From positions 1 through 64,000 of the forward strand of contig JAAYAM010000214.1 in assembly GCA_012719355.1 (NCBI GenBank): a stretch of DNA of 64,000 nucleotides, given 5' to 3'. The position numbers and the translations under genes are program-made. Of this stretch, positions 1 through 47,279 are shown one piece after another. Under the pieces are notes generated by a model. The model searched no databases and had not been told where the DNA came from. It worked only from the letters and a program-made list of their open reading frames with translations. Within the stretch, counting starts at the first letter, position 1, and each line of letters begins with the position of its first letter. The DNA is from Acidobacteriota bacterium. GTDB taxonomy: Bacteria > Acidobacteriota > UBA6911.

Positions 1-57
1 AAGAGCGACGGCGCCTATGCCCGTAAGACCCAGTCCAAGAAACGCCCTTCTTTCCAT
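1..57 (-). CDS. Tat-exported protein, N-terminus only
   Basis: Only the first 19 residues lie in the window; the gene runs off the left edge. They read M-E-R-R-A-F-L-G-L-G-L-T-G-I-G-A-V-A-L, a twin-arginine motif (RRAFLG) followed by a hydrophobic stretch, as in Tat signal peptides. A strong ribosome binding site, GGAGGAG, sits about eight bases before the ATG at 57. The gene is the last visible member of the minus-strand series that includes the TonB receptor, 142 bp downstream of its stop. Tat export implies a periplasmic or membrane-bound protein that folds before export, often a cofactor enzyme. The family cannot be told from 19 residues. Confidence 0.6.
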   Translation of the reverse strand, partial: MERRAFLGLGLTGIGAVAL

Positions 58-199
58 TCGTAATACTCCTCCAATCATCCAGTGCTTTCTTGCATTGCGT
101 GCTCGCAAAATTGATTCAGTTCATGAGAGGCTATTATGCATATCCCGCCCGAAAATCTCACTGAATTGTTTGTGCGGCCACAGTCGGGTTACTGTCCTG

Positions 200-2452
200 C
201 TATTCTCGCCATGCCACCAGTATCTCAGCGAAAGCAGACCGTCTCGGCGCGAGATACGAATAGAAGTACTCCCGATCGAGGATGTTCTCCACAGAAAGCG
301 ACAACGCGAACAGTCGGCCGATTCGATAGGTCACTTTTGCGTCGGCTGTGAAATAGGGATCAAACGAACCTGGCACCCCGGTAACAACATCCCTGTTTTC
401 GTCGTGGCTGTAGATTTTCCCCACGTACCGGCCGGTCAGAGTGGCCCTGATGCGGCCTCCCTCGAACTCTGCTCCACCGTTGCTTGTCCAGCGCGGAAGA
501 AAGGCAAGGAACCTGCCTTCGGTTGAAGGTTTCGATTCGTTTTCGGTAATCCTGGCATTGTTGAACGTTGCGTTGAGAAAGAGCCTCAAGTCCGGAGCGA
601 GGCGCTGGCTCAACTCCATTTCCACTCCTCTGCCAACAGCCTTTCCCGCATTGACATACTCGTTGATCTTGGGCGCAACCGGATCGGTTCTGCGATAAAC
701 CAGATTCGACATTCGGTTCTCGAAATACGCCAGGGAAGCATCCGCTCCTTTCCAGAGACGCCGATCGATCCCGGCATCCCAGGATATAGCCACCTCAGGC
801 TTCAGATCAGGGTTTGCGCGGTACACGGTTCCTGACGAGTAAGACCATGTCCGATACAGCTCGTATATCGTGGGCGCCCGAAAAACCCGGCCGATCGAGC
901 TTCTGAGAGTAGTTACAGGTGAGAGCCGGTAGACGATTGCTGCTTTGGGGCTGAGACTGAATGCTTTTCTCGCCGCATAGGAAGCAGGATATCCTTCGAC
1001 ACCGTCCTGGTTGGCACGACCGTCGAAGGTCTGCCAGAAATCTCCCCGCACCCCTATATAGGCCGTCAGATCTTTCCGAATGAGTAGCTCGTCCTGTGCG
1101 AAAAGACCCGTCGTCAGCGACTTCCCGCCTGCTTCGTATGTCATCCTATTCCGCGAGTTCTCGTCGCGCCAGTCTGCAAGCCCGTATTCGCGAGTTGACG
1201 CCACACTTCGGGTCAGATCCCCTCCGAAGGTGACAATGTGGCGGCTGAACACGGGAAACATGAACTGGATGCTGCCGGTCGTCCTGTGGAGAGGCGTTTC
1301 TGCAAGAGTGCCGGGACCTCCGGCGGCGGTGGTGGCTGCTGTGGATCCGGGCGTCGTATACCAGTTGTTGCCCACGCCCAGGAAGCTCACCATCGACTTC
1401 ATCTGTGCACGTCCGACCACGGTATCGAATGAGAGGCTGTAGATGTCCTGCCTCCTGTTGCCGGCGCCACTCAAGAATGACGACTCGCGCACGGTACTGC
1501 TCCCGGACGTATAGGAAAAGACCGGGTCGCCGGCGGCATTGCCCAGGTATGTATGCGGCGAATCCACCCCGTAGCGGTACGCACTTCTGAGGAACGAAAA
1601 ACCGATCCGGGAGACATCGGTAATCTTCCAGGACGCTTTCAAGTTGAAGTCATGATCATCCCAGAAGTTGTCTCCACGGTCGCCCACGATGAAACGCCTG
1701 TTTCCCTGCGTGTCGGTAGTCTCGCGGTATCCGGTGATACCGTCGGGCGGCTGGAGGCTTTGGGAATTGAGGTCGGTCGCGAAACCGTTCGTCCGGTTGT
1801 GGCCATAGCTGACCAGTATCCTGAACCTGTTGCTGAAGTTTTCGCTGTAAGAGAAATAGCCGCGCGCCAGGTCGTTCATCGCCTGGTTGTTCCCGAGCCC
1901 ACTGCCGAAACCTCCGCGCATGATGATCTCTCTGGTTTCAGGCATACGGGTAACAATGTTGACGACGCCTCCCATAGCGTTGCCGCCGTACAGACTTGAG
2001 AAAGGTCCCTTGACCACCTCTATTTTTTCAACGTTTCCCACAGCAAGACCGCCAAACTGCACTGCACCCAGATAGCTGTCGTTCAGCGGCATGCCATCGA
2101 GGAGAACCAGCGTTCTCTGCTGGCCGGGAAATCCTCTCAGGGTGATGGTGGATTGTGTGTCCATCACACCCTTCCCCCGGCGGTTGAATACACCGGGGAT
2201 CGTATTGATCGCCTGATCGATCGTTGAAATGGGTCGGCCCATCATTTCATCCAGGCTTATCACAGCGGCGCTGCCCGGCGAATCTTCAAGTTTCTTATCC
2301 GACCGCGTTGCGGTTACGACCACAATCTCGTTAAGCTCCGTCAGGTTTTGCGCTACAGAATCCGGGCGAAGACCAAGGAGGAATGCGGCAGAAAGGCAAA
2401 CAACGATAAAGGCACGACCCGTGCTGAATTCCTGCTCTATCACATGTCTCAT
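200..2452 (-). CDS. TonB-dependent outer membrane receptor
   Basis: A 750-residue outer membrane transporter that would import a scarce ligand using TonB/ExbBD energy. The N-terminus has a signal sequence (hydrophobic core near residues 14-27), then a TonB-box-like segment (EIVVVTATR, near residues 42-50), a plug domain (GRPISTIDQAINTIPGVF; TLRGFPGQQRTLVLLDGMPL; VEKIEVVKGPFSSLYGGNAMGGVVNIVT) and a long beta barrel ending in the NILDREYFY segment typical of the family. Overall it looks like the BtuB/CirA/FepA type. The ATG at 2452 has a GAGGAGA ribosome binding site that overlaps the region just after the DUF2117-like stop (17-bp gap), so the two are co-transcribed. Substrate is unknown; a metal chelate, corrinoid or other cofactor is inferred from family habit only. 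Confidence 0.93.
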   Translation of the reverse strand: MRHVIEQEFSTGRAFIVVCLSAAFLLGLRPDSVAQNLTELNEIVVVTATRSDKKLEDSPGSAAVISLDEMMGRPISTIDQAINTIPGVFNRRGKGVMDTQSTITLRGFPGQQRTLVLLDGMPLNDSYLGAVQFGGLAVGNVEKIEVVKGPFSSLYGGNAMGGVVNIVTRMPETREIIMRGGFGSGLGNNQAMNDLARGYFSYSENFSNRFRILVSYGHNRTNGFATDLNSQSLQPPDGITGYRETTDTQGNRRFIVGDRGDNFWDDHDFNLKASWKITDVSRIGFSFLRSAYRYGVDSPHTYLGNAAGDPVFSYTSGSSTVRESSFLSGAGNRRQDIYSLSFDTVVGRAQMKSMVSFLGVGNNWYTTPGSTAATTAAGGPGTLAETPLHRTTGSIQFMFPVFSRHIVTFGGDLTRSVASTREYGLADWRDENSRNRMTYEAGGKSLTTGLFAQDELLIRKDLTAYIGVRGDFWQTFDGRANQDGVEGYPASYAARKAFSLSPKAAIVYRLSPVTTLRSSIGRVFRAPTIYELYRTWSYSSGTVYRANPDLKPEVAISWDAGIDRRLWKGADASLAYFENRMSNLVYRRTDPVAPKINEYVNAGKAVGRGVEMELSQRLAPDLRLFLNATFNNARITENESKPSTEGRFLAFLPRWTSNGGAEFEGGRIRATLTGRYVGKIYSHDENRDVVTGVPGSFDPYFTADAKVTYRIGRLFALSLSVENILDREYFYSYLAPRRSAFAEILVAWRE

Positions 2453-2469
2453 CTATTTTCTCCTCGAAA

Positions 2470-3534
2470 TCAGAATTCATGCTCCGCGACCAGCTGATCC
2501 CCGAGCATTGCAGATATCCGTTCACGTACCGTCTTGAACGATTCTTCAATGACAGGCTGTTTGTGGAAAATAGTGGAAAAGACGGCAAGTCCGAAAACGT
2601 CATCCATCCGGACCGTGTAAATTACCGAGCCTTGAGTGATGCGTCCGTTGTCGAGGATGACATCCCTGTCGCCATCGGTGATACCGATCAACGGCATCCC
2701 GAACCGGTAGAGTATGTCCCCGACAATTGCCGTCGTATCGTCGCCGACAGTCACCGCGCCTTCAACATCATATATGCGGTCGTACACATTGATTGCACTG
2801 TGATCGACGAAGGCCATACCTCTGCCGGTTTGTTGCATGACGCGCGGTGTATGGTCCATGCGACGAAGCGCGGAGGTAGTTGCCAGCTTGACCGTCTTCA
2901 GATCGATGCCGCCCCTGCGTTCGAGCTTCTCAAGTCCGTGCGTTTTGATTTCGATCCCGTGCGTTCTGCTGATGCGCCGATCTTCACACTCAATTACGAC
3001 TTCTTCTCCCGTTGCCCTGCCTATAATGATCCCATCGGCGAGCACGAAATCGCCGGCAGCCGCCTCCGTAAGACGTCGACGGATCCTGCCGTCCTGCTCC
3101 CGTATTGTGGCAGGTACGTCGACGGGATCGTGCTTCTGGAGTTGCAGCTGCCATCTGAGGAGTTCCAGGACTTCAGGAGAACTTCCAGTATTCAGCTCGA
3201 CAAACCATCCCGCGGAGCATTCGATCTGTACCAGCGGTACTGCGACACCTGCTCTTGCGGCAACCATTGCTCCATGCAGTAGACCAGAAGAGGGAGTCTT
3301 GCCGTAATTGGCGAAGACCAGCTGCTCTGACCCGGCCTCGAGTTCACGAAGGATTTGGCTTGGTTGAGTCCCCGGGGTCTCAATATCCTGCAAGCCGCTG
3401 TCGATAGCGGCCGTCCTGCCCATCGTACCGGCGAGCACGCAACGGACCTGTTTCTTTGCACTGAAGCATTGAACGATTCTCAGCGCCCATCCGGAATCGA
3501 AAACCTCCGGTCCGTGAAAAAGAATGCCGATCAT
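2470..3534 (-). CDS. DUF2117-like conserved protein of archaeal type
   Basis: A 354-residue soluble protein. It begins MIGILFHGPEVFDSGWA and continues with VLAGTMGRTAAIDS, LVFANYGKTPSSG, VPLVQIECSAG, and later GIIIGRATGEEVVIE and KTHGLEKLERRGGIDL. From memory these blocks match DUF2117, a family I know mainly from methanogens and without assigned function; I could not run a search. The start is fixed by an ATGA overlap with the upstream gene (ATG 3534, upstream TGA at 3533-3531) and a GGAG ribosome binding site; a longer reading frame extends upstream but lies in the neighbour. It sits between a TPR-like protein and a TonB receptor in a tight operon, so a link to uptake or handling of a ligand is inferred. 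No signal peptide or membrane segment is seen. Confidence 0.6.
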   Translation of the reverse strand: MIGILFHGPEVFDSGWALRIVQCFSAKKQVRCVLAGTMGRTAAIDSGLQDIETPGTQPSQILRELEAGSEQLVFANYGKTPSSGLLHGAMVAARAGVAVPLVQIECSAGWFVELNTGSSPEVLELLRWQLQLQKHDPVDVPATIREQDGRIRRRLTEAAAGDFVLADGIIIGRATGEEVVIECEDRRISRTHGIEIKTHGLEKLERRGGIDLKTVKLATTSALRRMDHTPRVMQQTGRGMAFVDHSAINVYDRIYDVEGAVTVGDDTTAIVGDILYRFGMPLIGITDGDRDVILDNGRITQGSVIYTVRMDDVFGLAVFSTIFHKQPVIEESFKTVRERISAMLGDQLVAEHEF

Positions 3535-4106
3535 TTCTCCTCGATCCCAAAAACGGTTTTGTAGAGCCTGATGTGACGCTCGCTCCACGCGGCGTCGTCT
3601 TCGTGTCCCTGATTGCGCCAAAAGGCGGCGTTCTTCTCCCACTGTTCAATCGGGCTTCGATAATCCAGAACCGGCTGCCCGGTCTTGGCTCGTATCTCGG
3701 CAGCATGCTCGTACGCGTCCGCGGCGATGAAGTGGTTGCCGAGCTCCTCGGCAAAGGCCCCGAGCTCTTCATAGATCTGGATACATACATCCCATTTCTC
3801 CGCCCGCTCCGCGACAAGCGCGTGGCGGCAGGCAACCATTACCGCCAGTTCCCTGCTCCTGGCACGCCGGGCATTGTGAAACGCCTCGGTATACATCGTT
3901 AACGCCCTCTCGATATCGCCCGACTGTTCACAGGCCAGAGCGCCGCTGAAGAACCCGTTACAGGCCAGGATGTAGCTTCCTTTTGACGCTTTCAGGGAAG
4001 CAAATTCCCGCCATACGTCTGGATTTCCGGTTTTGCGAGCTTTTTCTTCAAGCTGGCGAGCGAGATAGTAGGGATCGTCTTTCGCAAGATTCCAATTCAG
4101 CATCAT
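3531..4106 (-). CDS. TPR-like helical repeat protein
   Basis: About 191 residues of mostly alpha-helical sequence with paired helices characteristic of tetratricopeptide-like repeats (for example SYILACNGFFSGALACEQSG, then DIERALTMYTEAFHNARRA, and WDVCIQIYEELGAFAEELG). Such proteins usually scaffold protein contacts. No signal peptide or catalytic motif is visible. I start at the ATG at 4106 (a second ATG follows at 4103) because GGAG lies just upstream; the reading frame can be extended to 4157 but that part overlaps the upstream gene's end. It overlaps the DUF2117-like gene by four bases, so the two are probably translated together. Function unknown. Confidence 0.7.
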   Translation of the reverse strand: MMLNWNLAKDDPYYLARQLEEKARKTGNPDVWREFASLKASKGSYILACNGFFSGALACEQSGDIERALTMYTEAFHNARRARSRELAVMVACRHALVAERAEKWDVCIQIYEELGAFAEELGNHFIAADAYEHAAEIRAKTGQPVLDYRSPIEQWEKNAAFWRNQGHEDDAAWSERHIRLYKTVFGIEEK

Positions 4107-4131
4107 AAGCTCCAATACTCGTGCGATCTGA

Positions 4132-5091
4132 TCAGCGCACCAGAAACACCGCGCCAACCATCCCGCCGAAGACCAGCACCCGCATAACTGTGGACACGAT
4201 AACGAGCTGCGTTCCGGTGACCGCTCCGAAAATCCCGAAGTAATACGGGACCAGATACCTTACGTTGGGCAGCGTTGAAAGGAGAGTGCCGACGAGCAGG
4301 GCGGCTACGATATCGCCTCCTCCCAACATTCCTTCAGACATCAGTCCTCCGGCAATCGTGTACGCTCCTATTGGACTGATCAACCGTGCCGCAATGATCG
4401 GCAGCGCTACCTGGGGCACGGGAAAGTAGGGGACAAGAGCCTCGAGATGCCGGGCCAGGTAATCAAACACCCCGAATCCGATCAACACGAAAGCAGCCCA
4501 GGCAAACGGGATCAGTGTTCTCAAGGTTCTTGGAATTATCTTTCGAGCATCCTTCAGGGAATTCGCCAGCGCCTGGCTTGCCGTCGGACGCTGTGGCCGG
4601 GAAGCTGTCCGGGGGGACAGATCCGCCCCCTCGGGACGAGGGAGAACAAGTCGGCCGATTGCAAGGAGAATCAAGGTCTTGATCAGATCCGCCAGCAAGA
4701 CCAGTCCATAGTAAATAAGACCGAAGATACCGATCAGCGGCATAGTCACCGGCAGAACGCTGCGGCCCTGTGCAATATAGCCGGGGAGTGCATTCATGAT
4801 GGCCGAAATGATAAGTTCGGAACGGCCGATACGGTTTTCCCTGTGGTAGCGGGCAAGCATTGAATGCCCCGCGGTAGGCGAGACGACGGCGACGACAAAG
4901 CTCCCGGCGCATTCGGGATGAAGATGTCCAAGTCGCATTAGAGGGCGGGCGAGCCAGGAGAGCTTATCTATCCAACCTAGCTCGACGAAGAGCTGAGCAA
5001 GAATGACCCCGGCGACAAATACAGGAATGATGGTAAGCAGGAATTTGCCCGTCGAGATTAAGGAACCTGCGAGTATTCCCGGAATGTCCAT
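4132..5091 (-). CDS. Gate-domain (nucleoside-recognition) membrane protein
   Basis: A roughly 319-residue inner membrane protein with about eight hydrophobic segments. The motif region SPTAGHSMLARYHRENRIG and the following IISAIMNALPGYIAQG resemble the Gate/nucleoside-recognition domain found in spore maturation proteins SpmA/SpmB, in concentrative nucleoside transporters and in the FeoB membrane part. That suggests a transporter or gated channel, substrate unknown. A GTG at 5106 is possible, but the ATG at 5091 gives a better N-terminus (MDIPGILAGSLIST) with GGGGCGA upstream. It is the first gene of the minus-strand operon that leads to the TonB receptor, so a two-membrane uptake route is a reasonable inference. 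Confidence 0.75.
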   Translation of the reverse strand: MDIPGILAGSLISTGKFLLTIIPVFVAGVILAQLFVELGWIDKLSWLARPLMRLGHLHPECAGSFVVAVVSPTAGHSMLARYHRENRIGRSELIISAIMNALPGYIAQGRSVLPVTMPLIGIFGLIYYGLVLLADLIKTLILLAIGRLVLPRPEGADLSPRTASRPQRPTASQALANSLKDARKIIPRTLRTLIPFAWAAFVLIGFGVFDYLARHLEALVPYFPVPQVALPIIAARLISPIGAYTIAGGLMSEGMLGGGDIVAALLVGTLLSTLPNVRYLVPYYFGIFGAVTGTQLVIVSTVMRVLVFGGMVGAVFLVR

Positions 5092-5217
5092 GTCGCCCCG
5101 TAACACGTATTTTCTAATTCGTACTACCGGCGAGGATCCTATCCTGCCGACACTGGTGGGTCAAGCGGTTTCGTAAAGGGGCCAATCTTTAATTAAGAAT
5201 TGAATTTGGGAAAAGAG

Positions 5218-5302
5218 TGCCGAAGGAGGGGGTCGAACCCTCATGGTACCAGGTACCGCGGGATTTTGAGTCCCGTGCGTCTGCCAGTTCCGCCACTTCG
5301 GC
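5218..5302 (-). tRNA. tRNA-Leu (anticodon CAA)
   Basis: Read on the minus strand it folds as a type II tRNA: acceptor arms GCCGAAG (5302-5296) and CTTCGGC (5225-5219), an anticodon stem CGGGA/TCCCG enclosing loop CTCAAAA with anticodon CAA, a long variable arm built on GGTACC repeats, and a T arm GAGGG-TTCGACC-CCCTC. Discriminator base A is at 5218; CCA is not encoded. The anticodon decodes UUG as leucine. The long variable arm supports leucine identity. Confidence 0.95.
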
Positions 5303-40831: not shown

Positions 40832-41968
40832 TCACTCGTTTACGTGTACCACCTTTGCCGGCGGAAATCCGTTGAACCAGGTCGAAGACGCGTGACTGTA
40901 GGCGCCGATGTTTTCCGTATAGACCAGATCTCCCAGCTTCAGGTCCGGCAGCGCTTCGGCCTGAGAAATGGTGTCAAGCGCGTCGCAGGTCGGCCCGAAG
41001 ACCGCGGAGATCTGTTTGGGTCCTTTCCTGAACGACTTGATCTCGTATTGGCAGTGATCGAACAGTATCCCGGAATACGTGTGGTAGATGCCGTCATTGA
41101 TGTAATAGCAGGGTTTGCCGTCACGTTCCGATTTTCCGATCACCTCGGCAACAAGTGTCGCCGCGCTTCCGACCATGAATCTGCCCGGTTCGGCTAGAAT
41201 TTCCAGTTCTTTCGGAAAAAGCCGGTCGAGCTCCCGCCGGAGGATTCGCGCTAATTCCCGGAAAGGCCTGACATGCGGATCATAGCGCACCGGAAATCCG
41301 CCTCCGATGTCGAGCAGCTTCAGGCTGTATCCGCGCGTCTGCGCTTCTTCCATTATTGCAGCTGAAGTCGAAAGCGCCTGGACGTAGTTTTCGAAATTGG
41401 CGCACTGGCTCCCCACATGAAACCCGAGACCCTCAACCACGAGCCCGGCATCGGAAGCCATGGCGATCAGATCCACCGCTTCGGCTGGAGAAGCGCCGAA
41501 CTTGCTCGACAATTCGACCATCGATCCCGTGTTGGGAACGCGGATCCGCAAGGCGAGTCCCGCATTGGGCGCATACCTGCGGATCTTCGTTATCTCCTCG
41601 CTGTTGTCAAACGCGACAAGCGGTTTGTACTGATCCAGCTCCTGCAGCGTGCGCCTGTCCTTGATCGGATTCGAGTAGATAACCTTGTCCCAGATGTAAT
41701 TCTGGCGTTCTTCGGCCGGCAGGTCGCGGATGTTGTCGTAGACCAGGTTGAATTCGGCTATTGAAGCCACATCAAAGCTTGAGCCGATCACAAAGAGTGT
41801 TCGTATGATCGCAGGATCGGAGTTCGCCTTGACAGCATAGTAAGGGTGCACCCGTGGAAGATATCGCCTGAACTCCGCGTAGTTCCTGCGTATCGCATCA
41901 TGATCGACGACAAAGATGGGCGTGCCGTGAGTGTGCGCCAGTTCTTTCAATAGCGATAATCTGATCAT
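40832..41968 (-). CDS. Ornithine/lysine decarboxylase-like, fold III PLP enzyme
   Basis: A 378-residue alanine-racemase-fold decarboxylase. The PLP lysine is K47 (YYAVKANSDPA), glycine loop DIGGGFPVRYDP is typical, and the C-terminal GPTCDALDTISQ with the substrate-contact Cys-Asp pair points to ornithine decarboxylase rather than diaminopimelate decarboxylase. It would make putrescine, or cadaverine from lysine. It lies nine bases past the stop of the deoxyhypusine-synthase-like gene, in an operon with agmatinase, so polyamine synthesis is strongly indicated. Carboxynorspermidine decarboxylase is a less likely alternative. Confidence 0.88.
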   Translation of the reverse strand: MIRLSLLKELAHTHGTPIFVVDHDAIRRNYAEFRRYLPRVHPYYAVKANSDPAIIRTLFVIGSSFDVASIAEFNLVYDNIRDLPAEERQNYIWDKVIYSNPIKDRRTLQELDQYKPLVAFDNSEEITKIRRYAPNAGLALRIRVPNTGSMVELSSKFGASPAEAVDLIAMASDAGLVVEGLGFHVGSQCANFENYVQALSTSAAIMEEAQTRGYSLKLLDIGGGFPVRYDPHVRPFRELARILRRELDRLFPKELEILAEPGRFMVGSAATLVAEVIGKSERDGKPCYYINDGIYHTYSGILFDHCQYEIKSFRKGPKQISAVFGPTCDALDTISQAEALPDLKLGDLVYTENIGAYSHASSTWFNGFPPAKVVHVNE

Positions 41969-41977
41969 GACCTGTCG

Positions 41978-43135
41978 CTACAGCGTCTTGTTATTCTTCC
42001 AGTACTCGGTTGTGACCAGTTCCATGATCTTCGGGAGCTTGTCATACAGGCGTTTATGTTTCCTCGGCTTTACCTTGGACATGGCGTAGTGCGCGAGGAG
42101 CGGGAACGCTACAGTCGAATCGACGTAGCAGACAACCGCATCGGGAAGCTGGGTCGGATCGACCTTGCCCCAGGTCACCGCCTCGTGCGGAGTGGCGCCT
42201 GAAAGCCCTCCGGTATCGGGCCGGGCATCGGTGAACTGGATGAAGTAATCATGCCCTTCTTCTTTCACGCGCAGCACCTCCTGGATCTGAGGTTCTGTCT
42301 GCAGCGTGAAATTCTTGGGAGATCCGCCACCGATCAGCAGCGTCCCCGTCTTCTGGCCCGAGCGCTTGGCGTCGAGCACGATGCCGGTGGTTTCATTGAC
42401 GTCCCGCGACGGATTGATGCGTAATCCGTTATCTCGCAATTCGAGGCCCGCGATGTTCATCCCGATCGTCGAATCGCCCGGAGACGGACAGTAGCATGGA
42501 ACTCCTGCACGATAGGCGGCGGCGAGTACCGAGCTGTTCTCGCGTCCCGTCTGCTTCTCGAATTCTGCACAATACTTGCCCAGGAGATAGTGCAGTTCGG
42601 CCGTTCCCATCTCATGTTGGAACTCGGGCTGCATCAGCACCTGCCGCAGAACGTGGTCCGTCGCCATCAGAACATCGTTGTAATCGAGCAGGATGTCGTA
42701 GATACGGACAACCCCGAGTTTCCGGAGTTCCGGATCCGGGGAGAAAGGAGATCCACGGAACAGCGGCATGTTCATCGCGTGGTGCATGTCGTGATACAGG
42801 TTCGCCCCGGTGGAAACGATCCAGTCAATGAAGCCCGCGTTGATCAGAGGCACGATTACACCGGAACCGAGTCCGGCTGGAGTCATGGCACCTGAAAGGC
42901 TCATCCCGACCGTCACATTGGGTTTGAGCATTTTTTCAGTAAACAGCCGGCATGCTTCCTGCAGCCGTCCCGCGTTGTACGCAAGAAACGTGTTGTCGAT
43001 CAGCTCCGCCAGCGGTTCCTTTCCTGTAACCGGATTCGGGAGAATTCGTTGTCCCCGCAGGAACTGCTGCTTTCCCTTGGAAAACTTGTGCGGGTATTTG
43101 CTGACAAATCTCTTGGGAAGCTTCACTTCGCCCAT
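41978..43135 (-). CDS. Deoxyhypusine-synthase-like protein
   Basis: A 385-residue protein of the deoxyhypusine synthase family. It has the NAD-binding layout SGVIVPLINAGFIDWIVSTGAN-like block near 91-112, TGTLLIGGGSPKNF, DARPDTGGLSGATPHEAV and the lysine in T-W-G-K (K324), which matches the catalytic lysine of the human enzyme. In eukaryotes and archaea the enzyme modifies eIF5A from spermidine; bacteria lack that target. Here it lies between agmatinase and a decarboxylase, so it more likely moves an aminobutyl group onto a small polyamine, giving spermidine- or homospermidine-like products. That role is inference. It overlaps speB by 13 bases and has GGAGAC before its ATG. Confidence 0.87.
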   Translation of the reverse strand: MGEVKLPKRFVSKYPHKFSKGKQQFLRGQRILPNPVTGKEPLAELIDNTFLAYNAGRLQEACRLFTEKMLKPNVTVGMSLSGAMTPAGLGSGVIVPLINAGFIDWIVSTGANLYHDMHHAMNMPLFRGSPFSPDPELRKLGVVRIYDILLDYNDVLMATDHVLRQVLMQPEFQHEMGTAELHYLLGKYCAEFEKQTGRENSSVLAAAYRAGVPCYCPSPGDSTIGMNIAGLELRDNGLRINPSRDVNETTGIVLDAKRSGQKTGTLLIGGGSPKNFTLQTEPQIQEVLRVKEEGHDYFIQFTDARPDTGGLSGATPHEAVTWGKVDPTQLPDAVVCYVDSTVAFPLLAHYAMSKVKPRKHKRLYDKLPKIMELVTTEYWKNNKTL

Positions 43136-44076
43136 TGCTGTTGTCTCCTCTTATCAGTTGCCTTCTTCTTCCCAGCCAGAGCATAGGAGAAAAGCTTGTA
43201 TACCAGTTTAGCCGCCAGGAAATCCGGCGCCCGGAAGCCTGGAATCGGGGCCAGTTCCACAACATCAAACACCGGCACACGCCCGGCATTGCCGAAAACG
43301 GTGCGTGCAATATCGAGCATTCGTTCCCATGATATGCCGCCCGGTTCAGGGGTCCCGACGGACGGCATGATTGACGGATCCAGGCCGTCCAGGTCAATCG
43401 TGAAAAACACCTGCTTGTTCTTCACAAACCTGGCCAGGTCCCGCAGATACTTCCCTGACGGATCGGCCGCCTCCTCCGAGTAAACCGTCTTCACCTGAGA
43501 ACAGCCGCGCAGGAATGAGGCTTCCTGGATGGAAAGATTGCGAATCCCGATCTGGAAGACCGGGCAGACATCCAAAATGCGCTTGGCGGCGCACGCGTGA
43601 CTGTAAGGAGATCCCTCATACTCCTCACGCATGTCCGAGTGCGCATCGACGTGTACGGCCACAAGCGAATCAGAACCGTCAACCTTCGCCAGTCCCCGCA
43701 CCACTCCGGCGGAAATCGAATGTTCCCCTCCGAGCACGCCCAGTACCTCGGGCCTCTGCGGCCCCGACAGGAGTGCGGCGACAGCCGACTCCACCGACTG
43801 GATCATCGCTTCGGGAGAGCTATGCACAAGATTGAGCGGGAGAGTAGTATGGATACCGTACTCCATCACGGGTTCAGAATCAAACTCCCTATCGTAGAGC
43901 TCAACCTGACGGGAGGCCGCGATGATCGCCGCCGGCCCTTCACGAGTGCCCGCGCCATAGGAAGTTGTCGCTTCATAGGGTATCGACAGTAACCATCCCC
44001 TGGAACGGTCCGGAGCAGAAATCTCATCGGGCAGTCCCAGGAAATTCCAAGGAGTCTGGAACAGTTCGTTTGTCAT
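43123..44076 (-). CDS. speB: Agmatinase (ureohydrolase family)
   Basis: Manganese enzyme that splits agmatine into putrescine and urea. The 317-residue protein has the metal motifs GGEHSISAG, AVHVDAHSDMRE, SHACAAKRI and FFTIDLDGLDPSIMPSVGTPEPGG, with the EL in DVVELAPIPG completing the set. The agmatinase reading rests on polyamine neighbours and on the small substrate loop; arginase or another ureohydrolase cannot be excluded. It is the first gene of the operon that continues into the deoxyhypusine-synthase-like gene. No clear ribosome binding site precedes its ATG, where a 9-bp tandem repeat is found instead. Confidence 0.9.
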   Translation of the reverse strand: MTNELFQTPWNFLGLPDEISAPDRSRGWLLSIPYEATTSYGAGTREGPAAIIAASRQVELYDREFDSEPVMEYGIHTTLPLNLVHSSPEAMIQSVESAVAALLSGPQRPEVLGVLGGEHSISAGVVRGLAKVDGSDSLVAVHVDAHSDMREEYEGSPYSHACAAKRILDVCPVFQIGIRNLSIQEASFLRGCSQVKTVYSEEAADPSGKYLRDLARFVKNKQVFFTIDLDGLDPSIMPSVGTPEPGGISWERMLDIARTVFGNAGRVPVFDVVELAPIPGFRAPDFLAAKLVYKLFSYALAGKKKATDKRRQQQWAK

Positions 44077-47101: not shown

Positions 47102-47279
47102 TTTGGGGCTCCAAGGGAAACTGGTTCATTGTACTACCGTAGCGCCTCTCTTCTGAAGACAAAAGTATGATCAAACATCCAATTGGTGAAACACGCACGA
47201 TTCGGCATTCCGGCACAATACGGGGTAACACGCATCCCTGATCTCTGTCACAATGGAGAGAGCTGGTGGAGGAAAGTGT

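Follow-up and report, generated by a model that had tools for sequence, protein, structure and literature searches.

Several described systems for nickel and cobalt uptake resemble parts of the locus reported here. In Helicobacter pylori, nickel import by NiuBDE has been proven, and FrpB4, a nickel receptor that depends on TonB, is repressed by NikR (PMC5140060). Rodionov and colleagues derived GTGTTAC-N13/14-GTAACAC as the operator of NikR, together with the reversed form (PMC545781). CbtX (COG3366), found in delta-proteobacteria and archaea, has been predicted to transport cobalt (PMC545781, PMC2667541). Here we analyzed a stretch of 64,000 nucleotides from an Acidobacteriota bacterium (the window), which represents contig C140 of a 4.57-Mb genome in 377 contigs and carries a DUF2117 gene among transport genes. 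DUF2117, which we take to be the same family as COG4073, is mainly archaeal and has no known role, and our literature search for DUF2117 or PF09890 returned a single incidental mention in the papers searched. One paper credits SMc00986 with six DUF2117 domains and places it under the iron regulator RirA (PMC3484140); six such domains are inconsistent with a domain of 325 residues.

Results

A four-gene set and its neighbours in the window

Between positions 200 and 5091, the minus strand of the window carries four tightly packed genes, which encode a Gate-domain inner-membrane permease with a CNT-like fold (4132-5091), a TPR-like soluble helical protein (3531-4106), a DUF2117 protein of 354 amino acids (2470-3534) and a TonB-dependent outer-membrane receptor (200-2452). 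A gap of 25 bp separates the stop of the Gate gene at 4132 from the TPR ATG at 4106, the TPR gene ends at 3531 and overlaps the DUF2117 start at 3534 by 4 bp, and 17 bp lie between the end of the DUF2117 gene at 2470 and the start of the receptor gene at 2452. The ORF coordinates reproduce exactly the spacing given in an earlier note on this DNA. That note had described a five-gene operon that includes a Tat-exported protein. The four-gene set is indeed conserved, but the Tat protein is a neighbour that is absent from all other cassettes.

The Tat-signal protein begins at the very edge of the window (1-54, minus strand), with only 18 of its residues inside. The first 127 bases of the window are identical to the end of contig C269 of the same genome, and from this shared stretch we infer that the two contigs are neighbours that were cut at one assembly node. 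The sequence to the left of position 1, the recovery of which the earlier note had proposed, is presumably found there: C269 completes the protein to 192 amino acids (L003, 18787-19365), and the completed protein matches Flavodoxin_5 (E=4e-11). Its gene starts 145 bp after the receptor gene. Because no flavodoxin was found in the 12 further cassette loci that were compared, we rejected it as a cassette member and prefer the description of a conserved four-gene set with a neighbour. About 1.1 kb beyond the flavodoxin gene, and convergent to it, C269 carries genes for HypA and HypB, which are nickel chaperones of hydrogenase maturation.

Rfam identifies a tRNA gene (5218-5302, minus strand) close upstream of the operon. 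Genes of this kind are common integration sites, and the tRNA gene is possibly linked to the patchy spread of the module. Elsewhere in the window, a polyamine-like cluster with decarboxylase, deoxyhypusine-synthase-like and agmatinase-like genes was recognized by eye (40832-44076).

Distribution and variants of the cassette

Twelve further bacterial cassette loci were found in Acidobacteria, Elusimicrobia, Desulfobacteraceae and one Brachymonas MAG. They derive from one scan of 85,000 species genomes, the matches of which were all bacterial, and from searches within phyla; almost all of them are metagenome assemblies. The closest cassette-bearing relative is an Acidobacteria MAG of the same genus (G266). 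DUF2117 is a rare family in these bacteria: a full-length copy was present in 2 of the 396 genomes sampled from the phylum of the window, in 1 of 395 genomes from the phylum of genome G397, and in 5 of 248 from the Elusimicrobia phylum. No relatives of DUF2117 were found in viral contigs and plasmids.

In all 13 loci, DUF2117 comes immediately after the TPR-like gene, and the two overlap by 4 bp. A TonB receptor gene is adjacent in 12 of the loci, the exception (L034) being located near a contig end. Clustering of these genes in 13 loci that span several phyla is far beyond chance. Each bacterial DUF2117 locus that was found adjoins TonB, Gate and/or ABC genes, which bears out the association proposed in the earlier note. 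Its view of DUF2117 as placed between a Gate channel and a receptor holds as a recurrent context, but Gate is dispensable, since two loci have only an ABC importer of the FecCD type.

The inner-membrane step is encoded, depending on the locus, by Gate, by a FecCD-type ABC importer, or by both. The cassettes of Acidobacteria and Elusimicrobia have Gate alone. Loci L016-L018 combine a binding protein, a FecCD permease and an ATPase with Gate, L019 and L024 have the ABC importer and no Gate, and in the Brachymonas MAG (L023) the ABC importer is accompanied by a divergent Gate (26% identity). The importer in L016-L019, L023 and L024 is NiuBDE-like, with Peripla_BP_2, FecCD and ATPase genes. At the level of gene content, the TPR-DUF2117 pair is the constant core of the cassette, and Gate and ABC importer are interchangeable, because the pair stays while the two importers replace each other. 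The sequence comparison documents membership, conservation and importer exchange directly. Phylogenetic trees of DUF2117, TPR and Gate have the same main groupings, which is what one would expect if the genes travel together as a module.

Two further observations concern the loci themselves. In locus L036, a short remnant of DUF2117 (4630-4845), with 59% identity over 32 residues, is found close to the gene for a distantly related TonB receptor, and the arrangement looks like a decayed cassette. Long stem-loops (AAAGCCANGAAGGCT...CCTTCNTGGCTTTTTT) are located about 60-200 bp upstream of the receptor gene in L016, L017, L019 and L024; a terminator, an attenuator and a dispersed repeat are candidate readings.

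NikR genes and operators accompany the cassette

Six genomes (L014, L020, L021, L022, L034 and L035) have a nikR gene immediately next to the cassette, inside it or divergent from it. The encoded proteins match NikR_C (PF08753), and the NikR of L021 scores above the NCBIfam NikR equivalog cut-off (153 versus 105 bits). The nickel-ligand residues (QH, HxH and C) are all kept in these six proteins and in the NikR of the window genome, which is encoded on a different contig from the cassette (G000:C76). No NikR was found in the five Desulfobacteraceae-type genomes, so that nickel is a candidate ligand of their cassettes.

NikR boxes were searched with the delta-proteobacterial consensus GTGTTAC-N13/14-GTAACAC in either orientation, allowing at most 2 mismatches. 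The cassette and nikR promoters, 3,351 bp in total, hold eleven boxes; a single one was found over the remaining 164 kb of these loci, and 320 kb of control loci gave none. The candidate NikR operator of the window (5100-5127; GTAACAC-N14-GTACTAC on the plus strand) is located 8 bp upstream of the Gate ATG and has 2 mismatches to the reversed consensus. It directly follows a weak sigma-70-like promoter (TTGACC-N17-TAGGAT; 5136-5164, minus strand), a kind of site of which 4 were found in the region against 2.6 expected. A pattern modelled on the window box has no second match in the 4.57-Mb genome. In G266, the Gate promoter has a box and so has the convergent promoter of the receptor gene. L035 and L023 have no box with at most 2 mismatches.

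The window has one more match to the NikR consensus at 2 mismatches (47225-47251). It ends just before an ORF at 47253 that is alcohol-dehydrogenase-like by eye, and is probably due to chance. In L035 (genome G1012), nikR is directly followed by a gene, again recognized by eye, for a ZIP-like transporter with a His-rich loop (1348-2079).

In the Rfam search of the cassettes only tRNAs were matched, and neither cobalamin nor NiCo riboswitches were found. The CbiM/NikM importer is absent from all six genomes with a cassette-adjacent nikR. HypC-D-E-F hydrogenase maturation genes are located beside the Elusimicrobia cassette L034. It should be noted that the NiFe-hydrogenase matches in 10 of 13 genomes carry little weight, because this census is unspecific.

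Because nikR genes and NikR operators accompany the cassette, its ligand is probably nickel, as judged from the regulator. The cassette is very probably under the control of NikR, and as a whole it is probably a nickel-acquisition system that would be repressed by NikR when nickel is plentiful. The earlier suggestion that a metal complex or cofactor is taken up or processed here is supported in this way, and the adjacent nikR genes and NikR operators narrow the ligand to nickel.

The Gate permease and the TonB receptor

The Gate protein matches PF07670 above the cut-off (E=2e-9). By Foldseek, its structural model (pLDDT 80) is similar to the nucleoside transporter CNTnw (probability 1.00, TM 0.51, but E=0.03), and this likeness of the predicted fold supports a permease role. 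Relatives of Gate outside the cassette, in the phylum of G397, are 27-45% identical; three of them are located in corrin or chelatase contexts and the others are not. One forms an operon-like array with the genes for CobN and a FecCD importer (L081, 2623-10238), one is beside ChlI/ChlD-like genes with CbiQ (L082, 317-7071), and one lies within a cluster of CbiG, tetrapyrrole methylase and CbiA genes (L094). The L081 and L082 clusters are candidates for chelatase-linked metal uptake. The surroundings of the Gate relatives fit CbtX (COG3366), a tentative assignment by gene context, and cobalt is conceivable as a substrate of the permease, since these relatives sit in cobalt/corrin clusters.

These gene contexts, together with the prediction that CbtX transports cobalt (PMC545781), are what speaks for cobalt or cobalamin (corrinoid) uptake through a CbtX-like Gate and a BtuB/BtuFCD-type receptor and ABC importer, as do the matches of the binding protein and permease to BtuF and BtuC models, which stay below cut-off. 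This explanation is improbable, given that the cassette carries nikR genes and NikR operators, that no cassette has a cobalamin riboswitch, that the receptor remains far below the cut-off of the BtuB model (144 versus 600 bits), and that Hyp rather than Cbi genes are the neighbours.

The receptor has both the barrel (PF00593, E=5e-45) and the plug domain (PF07715, E=6e-24), and is 42-46% identical to the receptors of the Elusimicrobia cassettes. No specific ligand model of NCBIfam is matched above its cut-off. The receptor is nearest to Cir/FepA among PDB sequences and to TonB-hemin in NCBIfam, and a flavodoxin gene follows it in the window; one could therefore read the locus as an iron-siderophore or heme uptake operon with passenger genes. 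We consider this hardly probable, because other cassettes lack the flavodoxin and have regulatory sites that resemble those of NikR. We rejected heme-receptor identity as the TonB-hemin score misses its cut-off (TIGR01785, 202.8 versus 316.85 bits) and the His that marks TonB-hemin receptors between the FRAP and NPNL boxes has no counterpart between the FRAP and NPDL motifs of the 7 receptors aligned. The seven receptors of the window type have no invariant His or Cys, and this would favour a chelate over a bare ion as the receptor ligand.

The TPR-DUF2117 pair

The identification of the DUF2117 protein in the earlier note proved correct: PF09890 matches over its full length (positions 1-325; 305 bits versus a gathering threshold of 25, E=6e-91). 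The alignment reveals invariant residues H7, E105-C106, H199 and H245 as well as an invariant Asp cluster (D265, D266, D287, D289, D291, D311 and D312). The AF2 model is confident (pLDDT 88) and has alpha/beta parts, and Foldseek returned no credible close fold in the PDB. Weak PF09890 matches elsewhere in two phyla were rejected as relatives, being 6-phosphofructokinases and metal P-type ATPases by sequence; the likeness of the phosphofructokinase GGDGT motif to GDDTT in DUF2117 is a faint hint as to the fold. For the TPR-like protein, the only Pfam match is a sub-threshold one to TPR_12 (E=0.001). DUF2117 is also present in methanogens, as seen with the PF09890 control sequences, and methanogens depend heavily on nickel.

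A cytosolic role of the pair in nickel release or hand-over would be consistent with its constancy across two unrelated importers and with the occurrence of DUF2117 in methanogens. That the pair handles nickel or a nickel complex directly is a tentative proposal, to which we give slightly less than even weight. Alternatively, the receptor and Gate or ABC importer would import nickel while the pair serves as a regulator or assembly factor of the transporter. The top Foldseek matches of DUF2117 are RCK-type channel regulators, at very low TM scores, and TPR proteins are often scaffolds; however, the pair is kept in L019 and L024, where the unrelated ABC importer replaces Gate, DUF2117 has invariant Cys, His and Asp residues, and the family also occurs in methanogens. 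On balance, such an auxiliary role seems rather unlikely.

Discussion

In the proposed nickel-acquisition system, the TonB receptor would bring a nickel complex across the outer membrane. Nickel or its complex would then pass the inner membrane through the Gate permease with its CNT fold or, in other loci, through the binding protein, FecCD permease and ATPase. The translationally coupled cytosolic TPR-DUF2117 pair would receive it, and would then either set the metal free or deliver it to nickel proteins, the Hyp machinery for example. NikR would repress all these parts when nickel suffices.

A more specific idea is that the cassette salvages an organic nickel cofactor, for example a tetrapyrrole of the F430 type that methanogens have shed; TPR-DUF2117 would open or strip this cofactor. 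Such a role would account for the occurrence of DUF2117 in methanogens as well, for the use of a permease fold known from transporters of organic solutes, and for the location of distant Gate relatives beside tetrapyrrole chelatase genes. Even so, we regard it as quite improbable.

With uptake of nickel as the preferred reading, DUF2117 likely gains its first role, in nickel acquisition. A Gate/CNT-fold permease would be linked to nickel and would exchange with an importer of the NiuBDE type, and the range of TonB-dependent nickel uptake would come to include Acidobacteria, Elusimicrobia and, probably, the Desulfobacteraceae. Should DUF2117 have this role in archaea too, a step that was not known would be added to nickel handling in methanogens. 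The reading predicts that nickel and NikR control the operon and that DUF2117 binds nickel or a nickel complex.

Among the known systems, the cassette resembles FrpB4/NikH with NiuBDE/CeuE-FecDE of Helicobacter (PMC5140060) in that a NikR-linked TonB receptor feeds an inner-membrane nickel importer. The Desulfobacteraceae-type cassettes have an ABC importer of the same FecCD/Peripla_BP_2 type, a putative nickel importer. In contrast to the Helicobacter system, the cassette usually has a Gate permease and always the TPR-DUF2117 pair, and the receptors are likened here by their TonB type and NikR link. CbtX is, like Gate, a transmembrane protein, and the relatives of the cassette Gate are found in corrin and chelatase gene clusters; the cassette Gates differ from it by their NikR-like control and their association with a TonB receptor. 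The DUF2117 proteins of methanogens are full-length matches to the same family (PF09890), but methanogens lack an outer membrane and hence a TonB receptor. With NikMNQO/NikKMLQO and NikR (PMC545781), the cassette shares the regulator and the operator consensus, whereas its transporter is unrelated, and CbiM/NikM is missing from the genomes in which nikR adjoins the cassette.
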